Origin: Gordius sp. MW1
Lineage: Eukaryota > Nematomorpha > Gordioida > Gordea > Gordiidae
Length of the DNA: 64,000 nt
Assembly (NCBI GenBank): GCA_964036665.1
Contig: OZ038531.1
Coordinates: 13,454,168 to 13,518,167, forward strand
Reading direction: 5' to 3'
How positions within the stretch are numbered: position 1 is the first letter of the stretch; each line of letters starts with the position of its first letter. A model generated the notes under the pieces. That model did not search any database, was not told the DNA's origin, and saw only the letters and a program-made list of their open reading frames with translations. Below are positions 49,295 to 64,000 of the stretch, piece after piece. Both the position numbers and the translations under genes were made by a program.

Positions 49295-49383
49295 GCGATC
49301 ATGATTTTAAAGTAATAGTTTTCTGATTCTGATAAATTTTTACTATCAGAATCTAAAAACTATTACTTTAAAATCATGATCGC
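49295..49383. repeat. Inversion junction: 40-bp palindrome with 9-bp spacer
   Basis: The left arm (49,295-49,334) and right arm (49,344-49,383) are reverse complements at 38 of 40 positions, with AATTTTTAC between them. To the left all satellite is in one orientation and to the right all is in the other. The last forward monomer stops after TTTTTACT, where intact relatives continue TTTTATCATCG. Inverted sequence then starts at ATCAGAATC, with about 1 bp of possible microhomology. Confidence 0.92.
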
Positions 49384-52205
49384 ATAGAGCAGTTTTCAAA
49401 AATTAAGCACTAACGTTGCGATACAACAAACTAATCGCTACAATAAAACGTTGTCTTTTGTCAAAATGATAGTTCTCGCAGCTTAAAACCTCTTTTCGGA
49501 AGTCAATCGAGGATAATAGGATTCTCAAAATGGCTTACTTTTATATATTTTTTTATGCTCTTTCACATAGAATCGAAAAAAATAAATATTTTTGCCTCAA
49601 AATTTTTCACATATTTTTCTTTGAACCGTATTCATCCGATGAAAGTTGTCGTTTTCAGACGTGGTTTCTAAGATCACAAGTAAAAATTTATCAGAATCTA
49701 AAAACTATTACTTTGAAATCATGATCGCATAGAGCAGTTTTCAAAAATTAAGCACTCACGTTGCGATACAACAAACTAATCGCAACAATAAAACGTTGCT
49801 TTTGTCAAAATGATAGTTCTCGCAGCTTAAAACCTCTATTCGGAAGTCAATCGAGGATAATAGGATTCTCAAATTGGCTTACTTTTATATATTTTTTTAT
49901 GCTCTTTCACATAAAATCGAAAAAAATAAATATTTTTGGCTCAAAATTTTTCACATATTTTTCTTTGAACCGTATTCATCCGATGAAAGTTGTCGTTTTC
50001 AGACGTGGTTTCTAAGATCACAAGTAAAAATTTATCAGAATCTAAAAACTATTACTTTGAAATCATGATCGCATAGAGCAGTTTTCAAAAATTAAGCACT
50101 CACGTTGCGATACAACAAACTAATCGCAACAATAAAACGTTGCTTTTGTCAAAATGATAGTTCTCGCAGCTTAAAACCTCTATTTGGAAGTCAATCGAGT
50201 ATATTAGGATTCTCAAATTAGCTTACTTTTATATATTTTTTCATGCTCTTTCACATAGAATCGAAAAAAATAAATATTTTTACCTCAAAATTTTCCAACA
50301 TATTTTTCTTTGAACCGTATTCATCCGATGAAAGTTGTCGTTTTCAGACGTGGTTTCTATGATCCCAAGTAAAAATTTATCAGAATCTAAAAACTATTAC
50401 TTTGAAATCATGATCGCATAGAGCAGTTTTCAAAAATTAAGCACTAACGTTGCGATACAACAAACTAATCGCAACAATAAAACGTTGTCTTTTGTCAAAA
50501 TGATAGTTCTCGCAGCTTAAAACCTCTTTTCGGAAGTCAATCGAGGATAATAGGATTCTCAAATTGGCTTACTTTTATATATTTTTTTATGCTCTTTCAC
50601 ATAAAATCGAAAAAAATAAATATTTTTGCCTCAAAATTTTTCACATATTTTTCTTTGAACCGTATTCATCCGATGAAAGTTGTCGTTTTCAGACGTGGTT
50701 TCTATGATCCCAAGTAAAAACTTATCAGAATCTAAAAACTATTACTTTGAAATCATGATCGCATAGAGCAGTTTTCAAAAATTAAGCACTCACGTTGCGA
50801 TACAACAAACTAATCGCAACAATAAAACGTTGTCTTTTGTCAAAATGATAGTTCTCGCAGCTTAAAACCTCTTTTCGGAAGTCAATCGAGGATAATAGGA
50901 TTCTCAAATTGGCTTACTTTTATATATTTTTTCATGCTCTTTCACATAGAATCGAAAAAAATAAATATTTTTGCCTCAAAATTTTTCACATATTTTTCTT
51001 TGAACCGTATTCATCCGATGAAAGTTGTCGTTTTCAGACGTGGTTTCTAAGATAACAAGTAAAAATTTATCAGAATCTAAAAACTATTACTTTGAAATCA
51101 TGATCGCATAGAGCAGTTTTCAAAAATTAAGCACTAACGTTGCGATACAACAAACTAATCGCAACAATAAAACGTTGTCTTTTGTCAAAATGATAGTTCT
51201 CGCAGCTTAAAACCTCTTTTCGGAAGTCAATCGAGGATAATAGGATTCTCAAATTGGCTTACTTTTAAATATTTTTTTATGCTCTTTCACATAAAATCGA
51301 AAAAAATAAATATTTTTGCCTCAAAATTTTTCACATATTTTTCTTTGAACCGTATTCATCCGATGAGAGTTGTCGTTTTCAGACGTGGTTTCTATGATCC
51401 CAAGTAAAAACTTATCAGAATCTAAAACTATTACTTTGAAATCATGATCGCATAAAGCAGTTTTCAAAAATTAAGCACTCACGTTGCGATACAACAAACT
51501 AATCGCAACAATAAAACGTTGTCTTTTGTCAAAATGATAGTTCTGGCAGCTTAAAACCTCTTTTCGGAAGTCAATCGAGGATAATAGGATTCTCAAATTG
51601 GCTTACTTTTATATATTTTTTCATGCTCTTTCACATAGAATCGAAAAAAATAAATATTTTTGCCTCAAAATTTTTCACATATTTTCTTTGAACCGTATTC
51701 ATCCGATGAAAGTTGTCGTTTTCAGACGTGGTTTCTAAGATCCCAAGTAAAAACTTATCAGAATCTAAAACTATTACTTTGAAATCATGATCGCATAGAG
51801 CAGTTTTCAAAAATTAAGCACTCACGTTGCGATACAACAAACTAATCGCAACAATAAAACGTTGTCTTTTGTCAAAATGATAGTTCTGGCAGCTTAAAAC
51901 CTCTTTTCGGAAGTCAATCGAGGATAATAGGATTCTCAAATTGGCTTACTTTTATATATTTTTTCATGCTCTTTCACATAGAATCGAAAAAAATAAATAT
52001 TTTTGCCTAAAAATTTTTCACATATTTTTCTTTGAACCGTATTCATCCGATGAAAGTTGTCGTTTTCAGACGTGGTTTCTAAGATCCCAAGTAAAAATTT
52101 ATCAGAATCTAAAAACTATTACTTTGAAATCATGATCGCATAGAGCAGTTTTCAATAATTAAGCACTGACGTTGCGATACAACAAACTAATCGCAACAAT
52201 AAAAC
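49344..52205 (-). repeat. Tandem satellite array, inverted arm, proximal part
   Basis: The same satellite continues as its reverse complement, about eight monomers, from the inversion point to the transposon insertion. Landmarks appear inverted, for example CGCAACAATAAAACGTTG and CTTTTATATATTTTTT. Monomers are B-like (GATCCCAAGT or GATCACAAGT, and GAACCGTATTCATCC). Two early monomers lack the GT of TTGTCTTTTG and read TTGCTTTTG (49,796 and 50,140). The last monomer before the insertion carries the rare TTCAATAATT variant near 52,152 that is used below to trace the duplication. Confidence 0.97.
52198..52205. repeat. Target site duplication, left copy (AATAAAAC)
   Basis: These eight bases directly precede the TAGTG terminus and are repeated exactly after the CACTA terminus. 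The same eight bases are present once at the equivalent place in uninterrupted inverted monomers, where CAACAATAAAACGTTG is continuous. Confidence 0.93.
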
Positions 52206-52214
52206 TAGTGTTTC

Positions 52215-52353
52215 GATCTCGTCTCGTCTCGGTCTCGAAAACAAAATCTCGTCTCGTCTCGGGAGCGATTGAGAAAATCTCGATCTCGTCTCGTCTCGGT
52301 CTAGAAAAATCTCGGTCTCGTCTCGTCTCGACGAGAATTCTCGTCTCGTCTCG
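52215..52353. repeat. Left subterminal TCTCG repeat block of the MITE
   Basis: By my count about 18 direct TCTCG pentamers occur in clusters of three or four, separated by short A-rich spacers. A perfect 16-bp palindrome, GACGAGAATTCTCGTC, lies at 52,330-52,345. Clustered subterminal motifs are where hAT transposases such as Ac bind, so this is a plausible binding region. That role is inferred. Confidence 0.85.
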
Positions 52354-52359
52354 ACTTTA

Positions 52360-53190
52360 AAAAAAAAATATATTCGGAATAAAAATTTCTCCTGTTTGAT
52401 TAAAAATATAAATAAGTGTTCAAAAATCCAAATGGCAAATTTTATATTTTTCGAAAAACTTTAATACACAAACTTTTTAAAGATTTAGCGGGACACGACA
52501 TCTCAGTGACAATATAAAGATATGAATTAACTCATAAAGATAACATTTTCTATAATAAGTGCAGACTAAAAAAACTATAAATAAATTTGAAATATAAAAA
52601 ATTAAATTTTATTGTTCTAGCAAATTATAATATTTGTATTAAATTCACTGTGTCTGTCAACTATAAATGGACTTCAAAAATTATAAGTTCGCTTACAGTT
52701 GATTTAGTTGCATAATTGAGAAAAATGAGACCCTTTATTAACCTTTGCTAATGCTTCAAAGTAGACCTTAACATATTTAAGGCAAATGTTTAAGTCCATT
52801 AATATAACCATCATTAATTTAACCCATAGTGTTTATTGCATGTTTACTATAGCGCTATAAACCTCAAAGTGCGAGTGACATTTAATGATGTTATTATTAT
52901 TTATGATAACTAGTTGCACAAATTAAAACGTTGTAAAAACAACAATAAAAGCAGCATTATTATAGAAATAAGAACATAAGGTTTAAACTTTAAATTAATG
53001 AATACGTATTTAAATGTATGACAAAAATCAACCATACTTAGGTAAATGATTGCCAAATTTTAATTTTTTTTGCAAAAATATATAATATTAACTACACTTG
53101 GGATTTTTTTTATTCCATACATATTGATTTACACTTAATACCTTAAATGTAAATTAAAGTACACAATAATTTACTAAAATCTAACGATCA
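52360..53190. other. MITE interior, no coding capacity seen
   Basis: This is about 830 bp of AT-rich sequence unlike the satellite. I found no open frame with transposase-like features. A 12-bp perfect palindrome, TATAGCGCTATA, lies at 52,848-52,859. The interior may derive from an autonomous parent by deletion or may be unrelated filler. The sequence alone does not decide. Confidence 0.7.
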
Positions 53191-53199
53191 ATAAAAATT

Positions 53200-53343
53200 C
53201 GAGATCTCGCCGAGAAAATCTCGTATCGTCTCGTCTCGACCTCAAAATTCTCGTCTCGATCTCGACTCCATTTTTCAAATTCTCGTCTCGTCTCGTCTCG
53301 GTTTTTCGAGACGAGACGAGACGAGACCGAGATTTTTCTCGGT
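53200..53343. repeat. Right subterminal TCTCG/CGAGA repeat block of the MITE
   Basis: About 12 TCTCG and about 7 CGAGA pentamers lie just inside the right terminus. Unlike the left block, both orientations are well represented because the block contains a long hairpin (53,281-53,326). The ends are therefore asymmetric, as is usual for subterminal regions of hAT elements. Confidence 0.85.
53281..53326. repeat. Perfect 20-bp-arm hairpin near the right end of the MITE
   Basis: Four TCTCG units (53,281-53,300) are followed by the six-base loop GTTTTT and then the exact reverse complement of the four units (53,307-53,326). The arms match at all 20 positions. Confidence 0.92.
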
Positions 53344-53358
53344 TTTTCCGCATCACTA

Positions 53359-53366
53359 AATAAAAC
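53359..53366. repeat. Target site duplication, right copy (AATAAAAC)
   Basis: These eight bases directly follow CACTA and match the left copy perfectly. They are followed by CGTTGTCTTTTGTC, the normal continuation of the satellite monomer. Confidence 0.93.
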
Positions 53367-55428
53367 GTTGTCTTTTGTCAAAATGATAGTTCTCGCAGCT
53401 TAATACCTCTTTTCGGAAGTCAATCGAGGATAATAGGATTCTCAAATTGGCTTACTTTTATATATTTTTTCATGCTCTTTCACATAGAATTGAAAAAAAT
53501 AAATATTTTTACCTCAAAATTTTTCACATATTTTTCTTTGAGCCGTATTCATCCGATGAAAGTTGTCGTTTTCAGACGTGGTTTCTATGATCCCAAGTAA
53601 AAATTTATCAGAATTTAAAACTATTACTTTGAAATCATGATCGCATAGATCAGTTTTCAAAAATTAAGCACTCACGTTGCGATACAACAAACTAATCGCA
53701 ACAATAAAACGTTGCCTTTTGTCAAAATGATAGTTCTCGCAGCTTAAAACCTCTTTTCGGAAGTCAATCGAGGATAATAGGATTCTCAAATTGGCTTACT
53801 TTTATATATTTTTTCATGCTCTTTCACATAGAATCGAAAAAAATAAATATTTTTGCCTAAAAATTTTTCACATATTTTTCTTTGAACCGTATTCATCCGA
53901 TGAAAGTTGTCGTTTTCAGACGTGGTTTCTAAGATCCCAAGTAAAAATTTATCAGAATCTAAAAACTATTACTTTGAAATCATGATCGCATAGAGCAGTT
54001 TTCAAAAATTAAGCACTGACGTTGCGATACAACAAACTAATCGCAACAATAAAACGTTGTCTTTTGTCAAAATGATAGTTCTCGCAGCTTAAAACCTCTT
54101 TTCGGAAGTCAATCGAGGATAATAGGATTCTCAAATTGGCTTACTTTTATATATTTTTTCATGCTCTTTCACATAGAATTGAAAAAAATAAATATTTTTA
54201 CCTCAAAATTTTTCACATATTTTTCTTTGAACCGTATTCATCCGATGAAAGTTGTCGTTTTCAGACGTGGTTTCTATGATCCCAAGTAAAAATTTATCAG
54301 AATTTAAAAACTATTACTTTGAAATCATGATCGCATAGATCAGTTTTCAAAAACTAAGCACTCACGTTGCGATACAACAAACTAATCGCAACAATAAAAC
54401 GTTGTCTTTTGTCAAAATGATAGTTGTCGCAGCTTAAAACCTCTTTTCGGAAGTCAATCGAGGATAATAGGATTCTCAAATTGGCTTACTTTTATATATT
54501 TTTTTATGCTCTTTCACATAAAATCGAAAAAAATAAATATTTTTGCCTCAAAATTTTTCAAATATTTTTCTTTGAACCGTGTTCATCCGATGAAAGTTGT
54601 CGTTTTCAGACGTGGTTTCAATGATCCCAAGTAAAAACTTATCAGAATCTAAAAACTATTACTTTGAAATTATGATCGCATAGAGCAGTTTTCAAAAATT
54701 AAGCACTCACGTTGCGATACAACAAACTAATCGCAACAATAAAACGTTGTCTTTTGTCAAAATGATAGTTCTCGCAGCTTAATACCTCTTTTCGGAAGTC
54801 AATCGAGGGTAATAGGATTCTCAAATTGGCTTACTTTTATACTTTTTTTTAATGCTCTTTCACATAGAATCGAAAAAAATAAATATTTTTGCCTCAAAAT
54901 TTTTCACATATTTTTCTTTGAACCGTATTCATCCGATGAAAGTTGTCGTTTTCAGACGTGGTTTCTAAGACCCCAAGTAAAAATTTATCAGAATCTAAAA
55001 ACTATTACTTTGAAATCATGATCGCATAGAGCAGTTTTCAAAAATTAAGCACTCACGTTGCGATACAACAAACTAATCGCAACAATAAAACATTGTCTTT
55101 TGTCAAAATGATAGTTCTCGCAGCTTAAAACCTCTTTTCGGAAGTCATTCGAGGATAATAGGATTCTCAAATTGGCTTACTTTTATATATTTTTTCATGC
55201 TCTTTCACATAGAATCGAAAAAAATAAATATTTTTACCTCAAAATTTTTCACATATTTTTCTTTGAACCGTATTCATCCGATGAAAGTTGTCGTTTTCAG
55301 ACGTGGTTTCTATGATCCCAAGTAAAAATTTATCAGAATCTAAAAACTATTACTTTGAAATCATGATCGCATAGAGCAGTTTTCAATAATTAAGCACTGA
55401 CGTTGCGATACAACAAACTAATCGCAAC

Positions 55429-55441
55429 AATAAAATAAAAC
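55429..55441. other. Probable hAT excision footprint (AATAAAATAAAAC)
   Basis: Here the monomer has AATAAAATAAAAC where other inverted monomers have AATAAAAC, a gain of 5 bp at the exact MITE target site. It equals two target duplications (16 bp) minus three junction bases, as expected after hAT excision. The left flank shares the rare TTCAATAATT and CACTGACG variants with the occupied site at about 52,152-52,172. The right flank shares GCTTAATACC, AGAATTGAA and TTGAGCCG with the sequence after the MITE. A simple TAAAA slippage duplication is the alternative. Confidence 0.65.
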
Positions 55442-58400
55442 GTTGTCTTTTGTCAAAATGATAGTTCTCGCAGCTTAATACCTCTTTTCGGAAGTCAATC
55501 GAGGATAATAGGATTCTCAAATTGGCTTACTTTTATATATTTTTTCATGCTCTTTCACATAGAATTGAAAAAAATAAATATTTTTACCTCAAAATTTTTC
55601 ACATATTTTTCTTTGAGCCGTATTCATCCGATGAAAGTTGTCGTTTTCAGACGTGGTTTCTATGATCCCAAGTAAAAATTTATCAGAATTTAAAACTATT
55701 ACTTTGAAATCATGATCGCATAGATCAGTTTTCAAAAATTAAGCACTCACGTTGCGATACAACAAACTAATCGCAACAATAAAACGTTGCCTTTTGTCAA
55801 AATGATAGTTCTCGCAGCTTAAAACCTCTTTTCGGAAGTCAATCGAGGATAATAGGATTCTCAAATTGGCTTACTTTTATATATTTTTTCATGCTCTTTC
55901 ACATAGAATCGAAAAAAATAAATATTTTTGCCTAAAAATTTTTCACATATTTTTCTTTGAACCGTATTCATCCGATGAAAGTTGTCGTTTTCAGACGTGG
56001 TTTCTAAGATCCCAAGTAAAAATTTATCAGAATCTAAAAACTATTACTTTGAAATCATGATCGCATAGAGCAGTTTTCAAAAATTAAGCACTGACGTTGC
56101 GATACAACAAACTAATCGCAACAATAAAACGTTGTCTTTTGTCAAAATGATAGTTCTCGCAGCTTAAAACCTCTTTTCGGAAGTCAATCGAGGATAATAG
56201 GATTCTCAAATTGGCTTACTTTTATATATTTTTTCATGCTCTTTCACATAGAATTGAAAAAAATAAATATTTTTACCTCAAAATTTTTCACATATTTTTC
56301 TTTGAACCGTATTCATCCGATGAAAGTTGTCGTTTTCAGACGTGGTTTCTATGATCCCAAGTAAAAATTTATCAGAATTTAAAAACTATTACTTTGAAAT
56401 CATGATCGCATAGAGCAGTTTTCAAAAATTAAGCACTCACGTTGCGATACAACAAACTAATCGCAACAATAAAACGTTGTCTTTTGTCAAAATGATAGTT
56501 CTCGCAGCTTAATACCTCTTTTCGGAAGTCAATCGAGGGTAATAGGATTCTCAAATTGGCTTACTTTTATATATTTTTTTATGCTCTTTCACATAAAATC
56601 GAAAAAAATAAATATTTTTGCCTCAAAATTTTTCAAATATTTTTCTTTGAACCGTGTTCATCCGATGAAAGTTGTCGTTTTCAGACGTGGTTTCAATGAT
56701 CCCAAGTAAAAACTTATCAGAATCTAAAAACTATTACTTTGAAATTATGATCGCATAGAGCAGTTTTCAAAAATTAAGCACTCACGTTGCGATACAACAA
56801 ACTAATCGCAACAATAAAACGTTGTCTTTTGTCAAAATGATAGTTCTCGCAGCTTAATACCTCTTTTCGGAAGTCAATCGAGGGTAATAGGATTCTCAAA
56901 TTGGCTTACTTTTATACTTTTTTTTAATGCTCTTTCACATAGAATCGAAAAAAATAAATATTTTTGCCTCAAAATTTTTCACATATTTTTCTTTGAACCG
57001 TATTCATCCGATGAAAGTTGTCGTTTTCAGACGTGGTTTCTAAGACCCCAAGTAAAAATTTATCAGAATCTAAAAACTATTACTTTGAAATCATGATCGC
57101 ATAGAGCAGTTTTCAAAAATTAAGCACTCACGTTGCGATACAACAAACTAATCGCAACAATAAAACATTGTCTTTTGTCAAAATGATAGTTCTCGCAGCT
57201 TAAAACCTCTTTTCGGAAGTCATTCGAGGATAATAGGATTCTCAAATTGGCTTACTTTTATATATTTTTTCATGCTCTTTCACATAGAATCGAAAAAAAT
57301 AAATATTTTTACCTCAAAATTTTTCACATATTTTTCTTTGAACCGTATTCATCCGATGAAAGTTGTCGTTTTCAGACGTGGTTTCTATGATCCCAAGTAA
57401 AAATTTATCAGAATCTAAAAACTATTACTTTGAAATCATGATCGCATAGAGCAGTTTTCATAAATTAAGCACTCACGTTGCGATACAACAAACTAATCGC
57501 AACAATAAAACGTTTTCTTTTGTCAAAATGATAGTTCTCGCAGCTTAAAACCTCTTTTCGGAAGTCAATCGAGGATAATAGGATTCTCAAATTGGCTTAC
57601 TTTTATATATTTTTTCATGCTCTTTCACATAAAATCGAAAAAAATAAATATTTTTGCCTCAAAATTTTTCACATATTTTTCTTTGAACCGTGTTCATCCG
57701 ATGAAAGTTGTCGTTTTCAGACGTGGTTTCAATGATCCCAAGTAAAAATTTATCAGAATCTAAAAACTATTACTTTGAAATCATGATCGCATAGAGCAGT
57801 TTTCAAAAATTAAGCACTCACGTTGCGATACAACAAACTAATCGCAACAATAAAACGTTCTCTTTTGTCAAAATGATAGTTCTCGCAGCTTAAAACCTCT
57901 TTTCGGAAGTCGATCGAGGATAATAGGATTCTCAAATTGGCTTACTTTTATATATTTTTTCATGCTCTTTCACATAGAATCGAAAAAAATAAATATTTTT
58001 GCCTCAAAATTTTTCACATATTTTTCTTTGAACCGTATTCATCCGATGAAAGTTGTCGTTTTCAGACGTGGTTTCTATGATCCCAAGTAAAAACTTATCA
58101 GAATCTAAAAACTATTACTTTGAAATCATGATCGCATAGAGCAGTTTTCAAAAATTAAGCACTAACGTTGCGATACAACAAACTAATCGCAACAATAAAA
58201 CGTTGTCTTTTGTCAAAATGATAGTTCTCGCAGCTTAAAACCTCTTTTCGGAAGTCAATCGAGGATAATATGATTCTCAAATTGGCTTACTTTTATATAT
58301 TTTTTTATGCTCTTTTACATAGAATCGAAAAAAATAAATATTTTTGCCTCAAAATATTTCACATATTTTTCATTGAACCGTATTCATCCGATGAAAGTTG

Positions 58401-59139: not shown

Positions 59140-60900
59140 CTAAAACTATTACTTTGAAATCATGATCGCATAGAGCAGTTTTCAAAAATTAAGCACTCAC
59201 GTTGCGATACAACAAACTAATCGCAACAATAAAACGTTGTCTTTTGTCAAAATGATAGTTCTGGCAGCTTAAAACCTCTTTTCGGAAGTCAATCGAGGAT
59301 AATAGGATTCTCAAATTGGCTTACTTTTATATATTTTTTCATGCTCTTTCACATAGAATCGAAAAAAATAAATATTTTTGCCTAAAAATTTTTCACATAT
59401 TTTTCTTTGAACCGTATTCATCCGATGAAAGTTGTCGTTTTCAGACGTGGTTTCTAAGATCCCAAGTAAAAATTTATCAGAATCTAAAAACTATTACTTT
59501 GAAATCATGATCGCATAGAGCAGTTTTCAAAAATTAAGCACTGACGTTGCGATACAACAAACTAATCGCAACAATAAAACGTTGTCTTTTGTCAAAATGA
59601 TAGTTCTCGCAGCTTAATACCTCTTTTCGGAAGTCAATCGAGGATAATAGGATTCTCAAATTGGCTTACTTTTATATATTTTTTCATGCTCTTTCACATA
59701 GAATTGAAAAAAATAAATATTTTTACCTCAAAATTTTTCACATATTTTTCTTTGAGCCGTATTCATCCGATGAAAGTTGTCGTTTTCAGACGTGGTTTCT
59801 ATGATCCCAAGTAAAAATTTATCAGAATTTAAAACTATTACTTTGAAATCATGATCGCATAGATCAGTTTTCAAAAATTAAGCACTCACGTTGCGATACA
59901 ACAAACTAATCGCAACAATAAAACGTTGCCTTTTGTCAAAATGATAGTTCTCGCAGCTTAAAACCTCTTTTCGGAAGTCAATCGAGGATAATAGGATTCT
60001 CAAATTGGCTTACTTTTATATATTTTTTCATGCTCTTTCACATAGAATCGAAAAAAATAAATATTTTTGCCTAAAAATTTTTCACATATTTTTCTTTGAA
60101 CCGTATTCATCCGATGAAAGTTGTCGTTTTCAGACGTGGTTTCTAAGATCCCAAGTAAAAATTTATCAGAATCTAAAAACTATTACTTTGAAATCATGAT
60201 CGCATAGAGCAGTTTTCAAAAATTAAGCACTGACGTTGCGATACAACAAACTAATCGCAACAATAAAACGTTGTCTTTTGTCAAAATGATAGTTCTCGCA
60301 GCTTAAAACCTCTTTTCGGAAGTCAATCGAGGATAATAGGATTCTCAAATTGGCTTACTTTTATATATTTTTTCATGCTCTTTCACATAGAATTGAAAAA
60401 AATAAATATTTTTACCTCAAAATTTTTCACATATTTTTCTTTGAACCGTATTCATCCGATGAAAGTTGTCGTTTTCAGACGTGGTTTCTATGATCCCAAG
60501 TAAAAATTTATCAGAATTTAAAAACTATTACTTTGAAATCATGATCGCATAGATCAGTTTTCAAAAACTAAGCACTCACGTTGCGATACAACAAACTAAT
60601 CGCAACAATAAAACGTTGTCTTTTGTCAAAATGATAGTTGTCGCAGCTTAAAACCTCTTTTCGGAAGTCAATCGAGGATAATAGGATTCTCAAATTGGCT
60701 TACTTTTATATATTTTTTTATGCTCTTTCACATAAAATCGAAAAAAATAAATATTTTTGCCTCAAAATTTTTCACATATTTTTCTTTGAACCGTGTTCAT
60801 CCGATGAAAGTTGTCGTTTTCAGACGTGGTTTCAATGATCCCAAGTAAAAACTTATCAGAATCTAAAAACTATTACTTTGAAATTATGATCGCATAGAGC
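59140..60900 (-). repeat. Uninterrupted paralogue of the MITE insertion locus
   Basis: This segment matches the sequence on both sides of the MITE, with CAATAAAACGTTG continuous at about 59,570-59,584. Upstream equivalents lie at offset 7,375 (for example 51,941 and 59,316) and downstream equivalents at 6,214 (53,791 and 60,005). The difference is 1,161 bp, exactly 1,153 plus one 8-bp target duplication. This independently supports the element boundaries. It differs from the occupied site by CAAAAATT in place of CAATAATT just upstream. Confidence 0.85.
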
Positions 60901-63900
60901 AGTTTTCAAAAATTAAGCACTCACGTTGCGATACAACAAACTAATCGCAACAATAAAACGTTGTCTTTTGTCAAAATGATAGTTCTCGCAGCTTAATACC
61001 TCTTTTCGGAAGTCAATCGAGGGTAATAGGATTCTCAAATTGGCTTACTTTTATACTTTTTTTTAATGCTCTTTCACATAGAATCGAAAAAAATAAATAT
61101 TTTTGCCTCAAAATTTTTCACATATTTTTCTTTGAACCGTATTCATCCGATGAAAGTTGTCGTTTTCAGACGTGGTTTCTAAGACCCCAAGTAAAAATTT
61201 ATCAGAATCTAAAAACTATTACTTTGAAATCATGATCGCATAGAGCAGTTTTCAAAAATTAAGCACTCACGTTGCGATACAACAAACTAATCGCAACAAT
61301 AAAACATTGTCTTTTGTCAAAATGATAGTTCTCGCAGCTTAAAACCTCTTTTCGGAAGTCATTCGAGGATAATAGGATTCTCAAATTGGCTTACTTTTAT
61401 ATATTTTTTCATGCTCTTTCACATAGAATCGAAAAAAATAAATATTTTTACCTCAAAATTTTTCACATATTTTTCTTTGAACCGTATTCATCCGATGAAA
61501 GTTGTCGTTTTCAGACGTGGTTTCTATGATCCCAAGAAAAAATTTATCAGAATCTAAAAACTATTACTTTGAAATCATGATCGCATAGAGCAGTTTTCAT
61601 AAATTAAGCACTCACGTTGCGATACAACAAACTAATCGCAACAATAAAACGTTTTCTTTTGTCAAAATGATAGTTCTCGCAGCTTAAAACCTCTTTTCGG
61701 AAGTCAATCGAGGATAATAGGATTCTCAAATTGGCTTACTTTTATATATTTTTTCATGCTCTTTCACATAAAATCGAAAAAAATAAATATTTTTGCCTCA
61801 AAATTTTTCACATATTTTTCTTTGAACCGTGTTCATCCGATGAAAGTTGTCGTTTTCAGACGTGGTTTCAATGATCCCAAGTAAAAATTTATCAGAATCT
61901 AAAAACTATTACTTTGAAATCATGATCGCATAGAGCAGTTTTACAAAAATTAAGCACTCACGTTGCGATACAACAAACTAATCGCAACAATAAAACGTTC
62001 TCTTTTGTCAAAATGATAGTTCTCGCAGCTTAAAACCTCTTTTCGGAAGTCGATCGAGGATAATAGGATTCTCAAATTGGCTTACTTTTATATATTTTTT
62101 CATGCTCTTTCACATAGAATCGAAAAAAATAAATATTTTTGCCTCAAAATTTTTCACATATTTTTCTTTGAACCGTATTCATCCGATGAAAGTTGTCGTT
62201 TTCAGACGTGGTTTCTATGATCCCAAGTAAAAACTTATCAGAATCTAAAAACTATTACTTTGAAATCATGATCGCATAGAGCAGTTTTCAAAAATTAAGC
62301 ACTAACGTTGCGATACAACAAACTAATCGCAACAATAAAACGTTGTCTTTTGTCAAAATGATAGTTCTCGCAGCTTAAAACCTCTTTTCGGAAGTCAATC
62401 GAGGATAATATGATTCTCAAATTGGCTTACTTTTATATATTTTTTTATGCTCTTTTACATAGAATCGAAAAAAATAAATATTTTTGCCTCAAAATATTTC
62501 ACATATTTTTCATTGAACCGTATTCATCCGATGAAAGTTGTCGTTTTCAGACGTGGTTTCTATGATCCCAAGTAAAAACTTATCAGAATCTAAAAACTAT
62601 TACTTTGAAATCATGATCGCATGGAGCAGTTTTCAAAAATTAAGCACTCACGTTGCTATACAACAAACTAATCGCAACAATAAAACGTTGTCTTTTGTCA
62701 AAATGATAGTTCTCGCAGCTTAAAACCTCTTTTCGGAAGTCGATCGAGGATAATAGGATTCTCAAATTGGCTTACTTTTATATATTTTTTCATGCTCTTT
62801 CACATAGAATCGAAAAAAATAAATATTTTTGCCTCAAAATTTTTCACATATTTTTCTTTGAACCGTATTCATCCGATGAAAGTTGTAGTTTTCAGACGTG
62901 GTTTCTATGATCCCAAGTAAAAACTTATCAGAATCTAAAAACTATTACTTTGAAATCATGATCGCATGGAGCAGTTTTTAAAAATTAAGCACTCACGTTG
63001 CTATACAACAAACTAATCGCAACAATAAAACGTTGTCGTTTGTCAAAATGATAGTTCTCGCAGCTTAAAACCTCTTTTCGGAAGTCGATCGAGGATAATA
63101 GGATTCTCAAATTGGCTTACTTTTATATATTTTTTCATGCTCTTTCACATAGAATCGAAAAAAATAAATATTTTTGCCTCAAAATTTTTCACATATTTTT
63201 CTTTGAACCGTATTCATCCGATGAAAGTTGTCGTTTTCAGACGTGGTTTCTATGATCCCAAGTAAAAACTTATCAGAATCTAAAAACTATTACTTTGAAA
63301 TCATGATCGCATAGAGCAGTTTTCAAAAATTAAGCACTAACGTTGCGATACAACAAACTAATCGCAACAATAAAACGTTGTCTTTTGTCAAAATGATAGT
63401 TCTCGCAGCTTAAAACCTCTTTTCGGAAGTCAATCGAGGATAATAGGATTCTCAAATTGGCTTACTTTTATATATTTTTTTATGCTCTTTTACATAGAAT
63501 CGAAAAAATAAATATTTTTGCCTCAAAATATTTCACATATTTTTCATTGAACCGTATTCATCCGATGAAAGTTGTTGTTTTCAGACGTGGTTTCTATGAT
63601 CCCAAGTAAAAACTTATCAGAATCTAAAAACTATTACTTTGAAATCATGATCGCATGGAGCAGTTTTCAAAAATTAAGCACTCACGTTGCTATACAACAA
63701 ACTAATCGCAACAATAAAACGTTGTCTTTTGTCAAAATGATAGTTCTCGCAGCTTAAAACCTCTTTTCGGAAGTCGATCGAGGATAATAGGATCCTCAAA
63801 TTGGCTTACTTTTATATATTTTTTCATGCTCTTTCACATAGAATCGAAAAAAATAAATATTTTTGCCTCAAAATTTTTCACATATTTTTCTTTGAACCGT

Positions 63901-64000
63901 ATTCATCCGATGAAAGTTGTCGTTTTCAGGCGTGGTTTCTATGATCCCAAGTAAAAACTTATCAGAATCTAAAAACTATTACTTTGAAATCATGATCGCA

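Follow-up and report, generated by a model that had tools for sequence, protein, structure and literature searches.

A candidate hAT excision scar in a tandemly duplicated satellite monomer of Gordius sp. MW1

Introduction

The locus described here raises the question of whether a satellite monomer was once occupied by a DNA transposon that has since left it. Excision scars of this kind are difficult to demonstrate from a genome assembly, as the occupied state no longer exists there. The window, a 64,000-nucleotide stretch of the Gordius sp. MW1 assembly, is an array of 345-bp satellite monomers whose orientation flips once, near position 49344. Within it, the sequence AATAAAATAAAAC (55429–55441, + strand) stands at exactly the monomer position that serves as 8-bp target, AATAAAAC, for a 1,153-bp hAT-type element found at 52206–53358. 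A preliminary description had read the 13 bases as two target site duplications (TSDs) less three bases, left behind in a duplicated copy of the occupied locus.

The element and its family

The occupied locus is referred to as A. Its element (52206–53358, + strand) is non-autonomous, has the ends TAGTGTTTCG...CGCATCACTA and TCTCG-rich subterminal inverted repeats, and is flanked by perfect 8-bp TSDs of AATAAAAC on the left (52198–52205, + strand) and on the right (53359–53366, + strand). Short terminal inverted repeats of hAT elements follow a TAGNG/CAGNG-type consensus. In keeping with this, TAGTG is present at both ends of the element, and the first 10 bases agree at eight positions. No listed open reading frame within the element exceeds 66 aa, and its 3′ end has 1,444 matches with up to two mismatches. 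The element is therefore short, non-coding and present in many copies, as is usual for non-autonomous elements and MITEs; for a MITE, its length of 1,153 bp is on the high side.

Forty of 2,213 candidate family copies were scored, and the 30 copies most like the one at A were fetched. With the end pair giving the best TSD chosen for each copy, 25 of the 30 have perfect 8-bp TSDs, as expected of hAT elements, one has a 7/8 match, one has none, and three (L014, L017 and L019) look by eye to have 6-bp TSDs. Six of the 30 copies (A included), located on C1, C4, C5 and C6, are identical over 1,153 bp; two of the three copies with apparent 6-bp TSDs belong to this group. The identical copies support recent activity of the family separately from the scar, and the family is evidently hAT-like and young.

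A candidate transposase for the family is found at C8:21828565–21829959, where a 465-aa frame without a stop carries a Dimer_Tnp_hAT domain and a hAT-like RNase-H domain just over the cut-off. The frame lies 743 bp from an end that resembles the first ~165 bp of the element, and it matches the Hermes transposase (PDB 8edg, 2bw3; best E 4.3e-12) over a span of at most residues 323–456. On C1–C4, a listed family 5′ end occurs within 2 kb of six of 53 transposase matches in the expected orientation and of none of the 53 in the opposite orientation, while random placing gives a mean of 0.06 of 53. At C1:24757061, a degenerate C-terminal remnant of the transposase is situated between both family ends, 1,633 bp apart (C1:24756257–24757889), and at C1:14904861 the 3′ end flanks a further remnant on the side where it would be expected. 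Two transposase copies on C6 are 98% identical and have 573-aa open frames; they lie in opposite orientation, ~2.2 kb apart (C6:5654284–5659296). None of the transposase loci read is an intact element with both ends. Among three longer transposase loci read downstream, one has a family end and two have no convincing one. No family ends were seen at the 30 hAT-domain loci scanned (of 150 listed, ~1.5 kb each way). Both results count against the link between transposase and family ends, yet they would be expected in a genome containing many hAT families.

Repeated insertion at one satellite position

Occupied copies of the same satellite target exist elsewhere in the genome. The sequence AATCGCAACAATAAAACTAGTG has 20 matches with up to two mismatches, and the five exact ones, on C1, C2, C3, C5 (A) and C8, are all family elements with AATAAAAC on both sides (L072, L073, L074, L075, which is window 52198–53366, and L076). 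One of the five, L073, is reversed at the same satellite position and differs from the element at A at 283 of 1,126 positions. The nearest relatives of A, L074 and L076 are copies outside this satellite target. L072 is nearest to L076, from which it differs at 49 of 1,132 positions, so these two could share an origin. On these comparisons, at least four of the five insertions at AATAAAAC look independent.

Three satellite insertions were met without selection for this target (L040, C1:12121200 and C1:11295559, the last placed in the satellite only by its neighbours), and one of the three is at this position, with a value of 0.009 by chance. An insertion hot spot at one position of the satellite monomer is likely, this being the one position counted. 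With respect to target choice, Hermes is described as preferring nTnnnnAn (PMC6900584); AATAAAAC agrees with this preference at position 7 but not at position 2.

The scar in the window and in the genome

The sequence AATAAAATAAAAC is found once in the window, where 0.05 occurrences are expected by chance. Compared with the TSD AATAAAAC, it equals two 8-bp copies less 3 bp (8 + 8 − 3 = 13), a net gain of 5 bp, and the perfect TSDs at A bear out the arithmetic first proposed for it. A scan of the window for the anchor gave 156 monomer sites. At 143 of these, AACAATAAAAC precedes GTTG, ATTG or GTTT. Small variants occur at 11 more, one of them a 1-base loss and none with bases added at the target, and the remaining two are the element site and the site of the 5-bp gain. 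Listing insertions in the target region across monomers, the check suggested in the preliminary description, thus leaves the scar as the sole gain among the 156 apart from the element site.

In hAT footprints, both TSD copies are left with a small change at the join, and this is the structure of AATAAAATAAAAC. Palindromic filler derived from hairpins on the flanks is frequent in such footprints without being obligatory, and is their most telling mark; none is present within these 13 bases, which counts against the reading as a scar.

The satellite also provides a control at the scale of the genome (211.8 Mb, 12 contigs searched). The plain site, AATCGCAACAATAAAACGTTG, has 51,224 exact occurrences (29,951 + 21,273), whereas the scar version has a single one, even with up to two mismatches allowed. 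The possibility that the TAAAA gain is a common satellite variant is rejected by this single match. The same 5-bp gain in monomers unrelated to A, which had been named as the observation that would favor replication slippage, is therefore absent from the genome at this threshold, while other short gains do occur.

A search for any gain of 1–25 bp between exact flanks returned 41 sites. Thirty of these represent one common 12-bp duplication on C8, and the other 11 comprise +C (3), +A (2), +CGTT (2), and +AAC, +AAA, +AACGT and the scar (one each). The 30 monomers with the 12-bp duplication form two clusters ~120 kb apart (C8:15750187–15923627). By our own estimate, the 40 non-scar sites collapse to 8–10 events, of which 5–6 are of at least 3 bp. 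All 41 gains can be read as short tandem duplications. Since the scar, as a 5-bp tandem duplication, is no exception, it is not diagnostic in itself; its linkage is.

Two gain loci besides the scar were read, C1:12187225 (+AAC) and C8:12958246 (+AACGT). Both were rejected as footprints of known occupied sites, as neither is a close twin of one: at best, 13 of 345 and 8 of 346 positions differ, respectively. At L040, the second satellite site checked, none of nine gain sites fits a footprint.

Linkage of the scar to the occupied locus

Pairwise alignment was used to compare four near-identical target monomers: A (anchor 52176), which holds the element; B (anchor 55407), which holds the scar; and C (59551) and D (65072, slightly past the end of the window), in both of which the target is unoccupied. 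Copy C (59551–59894, + strand) equals A minus the element and one TSD, and C and D evidently represent the pre-insertion state. The idea that the gain was already present at A before insertion was rejected, as removing one TSD from the flanks of A restores the plain target. A distance of 5,521 bp separates C from D, and of the seven monomers compared, starting at the target, six do not differ between them (59551–64000 and L010), marking a young larger repeat unit.

Locus B lies downstream of A and is a six-monomer tandem duplicate of it (2,070 bp, element-free length). Besides the scar, five changes separate the two loci over these 2,070 bp, all of them confined to 125 bp (56415–56539, + strand). 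To the right of the target, the first 973 bp are identical between A (53367–54339, + strand) and B (55442–56414, + strand). The version of the five-change tract carried by B (131 bp) recurs without change in four other monomers, at 54682, 56757, 60896 and 66417, the last of which is beyond the window. The junction of the duplication can be placed at 55313–55386 (+ strand; anchor −94 to −21) by sequence comparison. Left of anchor −21, 921 bp of B match the sequence upstream of the 57482 monomer exactly, and right of anchor −94 B equals A as far as the target, from which the six-monomer duplicate and the junction interval both follow.

The two loci also share an upstream haplotype, TTCAATAATTAAGCACTGACG..., at 52151–52197 in A and 55382–55428 in B (both + strand), the combination being found at A and B only. 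As first described, the rare variant TTCAATAATT alone marked the pair. This holds within the window (52151 and 55382) but fails genome-wide, where it is the combination TTTTCAATAATTAAGCACTGACGTTGCGATAC that is exact at A and B only. One-mismatch matches to TTTTCAATAATTAAGCACTGACGTTGCGATAC occur at 82 more places, and many of these are TTCAATAATT joined to ACTCACG, so the variant is not unique alone and the combination is. Two downstream markers offered as specific to A and B had to be dropped, as AGAATTGAA occurs at six places on the + strand and 11 on the − strand, and TTGAGCCG is also present at 59752, in copy C. Markers that are common to A and B and absent in C and D are T at anchor −20, A at +1224 and T at +1986.

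Origin of the scar and alternative explanations

Taken together, AATAAAATAAAAC is most probably the repair scar of a non-autonomous hAT-family element that left one copy of its tandem-duplicated insertion site. The unique gain, the identity of A and B, and the shared haplotype give good support to the reading of the site as a scar and of B as a duplicate of the occupied locus; that B itself was formerly occupied is inferred from this duplication. The sequence itself shows the element at A within AATAAAAC, bordered by its 8-bp duplication and set in a monomer carrying the private upstream variant; it also shows B, six monomers downstream, to be a duplicate of the A locus with a homologous junction, lacking the element and retaining both TSD copies less three bases. 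A hAT transposase would have cut the element out, and the flanks, presumably capped by hairpins, would have been opened and joined end to end, with three bases lost and the exact point of joining ambiguous by 2 bp (AA). A pair of TSDs shortened by three bases, with this ambiguity, fits hAT excision. In published accounts, hAT transposases are described as leaving hairpins on the flanking DNA (PMC6900584, PMC4763223), and TcBuster scars as showing small gains and losses (PMC3499496).

The preliminary description had the locus duplicated first and the element excised later by a transposase still active after the duplication. As to the transposase, only activity after the insertion is upheld. The order is not forced, as an unequal exchange between an element-bearing and a scarred chromatid gives the same array. 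Two partners are required for a tandem junction of this kind: excision was later than the duplication if both held the element, and earlier if one of them already bore the scar. Excision before duplication, with the right-hand partner of the exchange already scarred, is a plausible if tentative version of the scar reading. Either chromatid could carry the scar, the non-scar differences between A and B fall in one 125-bp tract that gives no order of events, and nothing was found against it. Several orders fit, with excision before, during or after the exchange.

A and B would instead be alleles if the assembly had fused two haplotypes, an element-bearing and a scarred one, into an apparent tandem. 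Such joins are to be expected in near-identical satellite arrays. This explanation is unlikely. Speaking mildly against it are the in-register junction, to the left of which 921 bp are identical, and the presence nearby of other multi-monomer repeats (C and D).

Slightly less credible is replication slippage, under which B never held an element and acquired TAAAA through tandem duplication of 5 bp, with an independent insertion at A. In formal terms the gain does qualify as a tandem duplication, and gains of 1, 3, 4, 5 and 12 bp elsewhere at this site can each be read in the same way. However, the scar gain is unique genome-wide, is placed exactly at the TSD, and sits in the sole other locus with the upstream haplotype of the element, a coincidence that we roughly estimate at 7e-4 to 2e-3 (7 events, 5 or 15 twin sites, own estimates); moreover, the two other gain loci that were read are not close twins of occupied sites. 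Finally, a separate insertion into B that was then lost is highly improbable, for although elements sit in this satellite target at five places, these five exact sites stand against 51,224 exact unoccupied ones, and the twin of A is much more likely to have inherited the element through the duplication than to have received an independent insertion.

Discussion

The scar is likely a new instance of a known process, and an unusually well controlled one. Comparable excision footprints are those of the hAT elements Ac/Ds, hobo and Hermes. The likeness to TcBuster footprints lies in a small alteration where the 8-bp target used to be, with the loss or gain of few bases, which the TcBuster study attributes to flank hairpins and end joining (PMC3499496). 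In contrast to TcBuster, the candidate scar lies in a satellite duplicate beside an occupied copy, is recognized from sequence alone, and is without palindromic filler from flank hairpins, a feature described as frequent in hAT scars (PMC3499496). In the maize P1-wr tandem gene array, breaks from transposon excision have been proposed as triggers of array change (PMC2686159); the element there is a Mule and the repeats are genes, whereas here a hAT-type element, a 345-bp satellite and a readable scar are involved. Among open PMC papers, titles and the opening lines of abstracts held nothing on point regarding excision footprints in satellites or hAT hot spots, and what was retrieved on a 345-bp satellite was unrelated.

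An occupied copy, a scarred copy and two unoccupied relatives are present here within 13 kb, and more than 51,000 monomers allow slippage to be controlled for. Excision at the satellite target might itself have triggered the six-monomer exchange, which we consider doubtful: the duplication junction lies ~45–125 bp from the cut site, a distance that fits such a trigger and is not significant in a 345-bp monomer. If it were true, a hAT family recurring at one satellite position would help to drive turnover of the array. Repeated insertion at one satellite position, together with identical recent copies, may thus offer a system for testing whether transposon breaks reshape satellite arrays.
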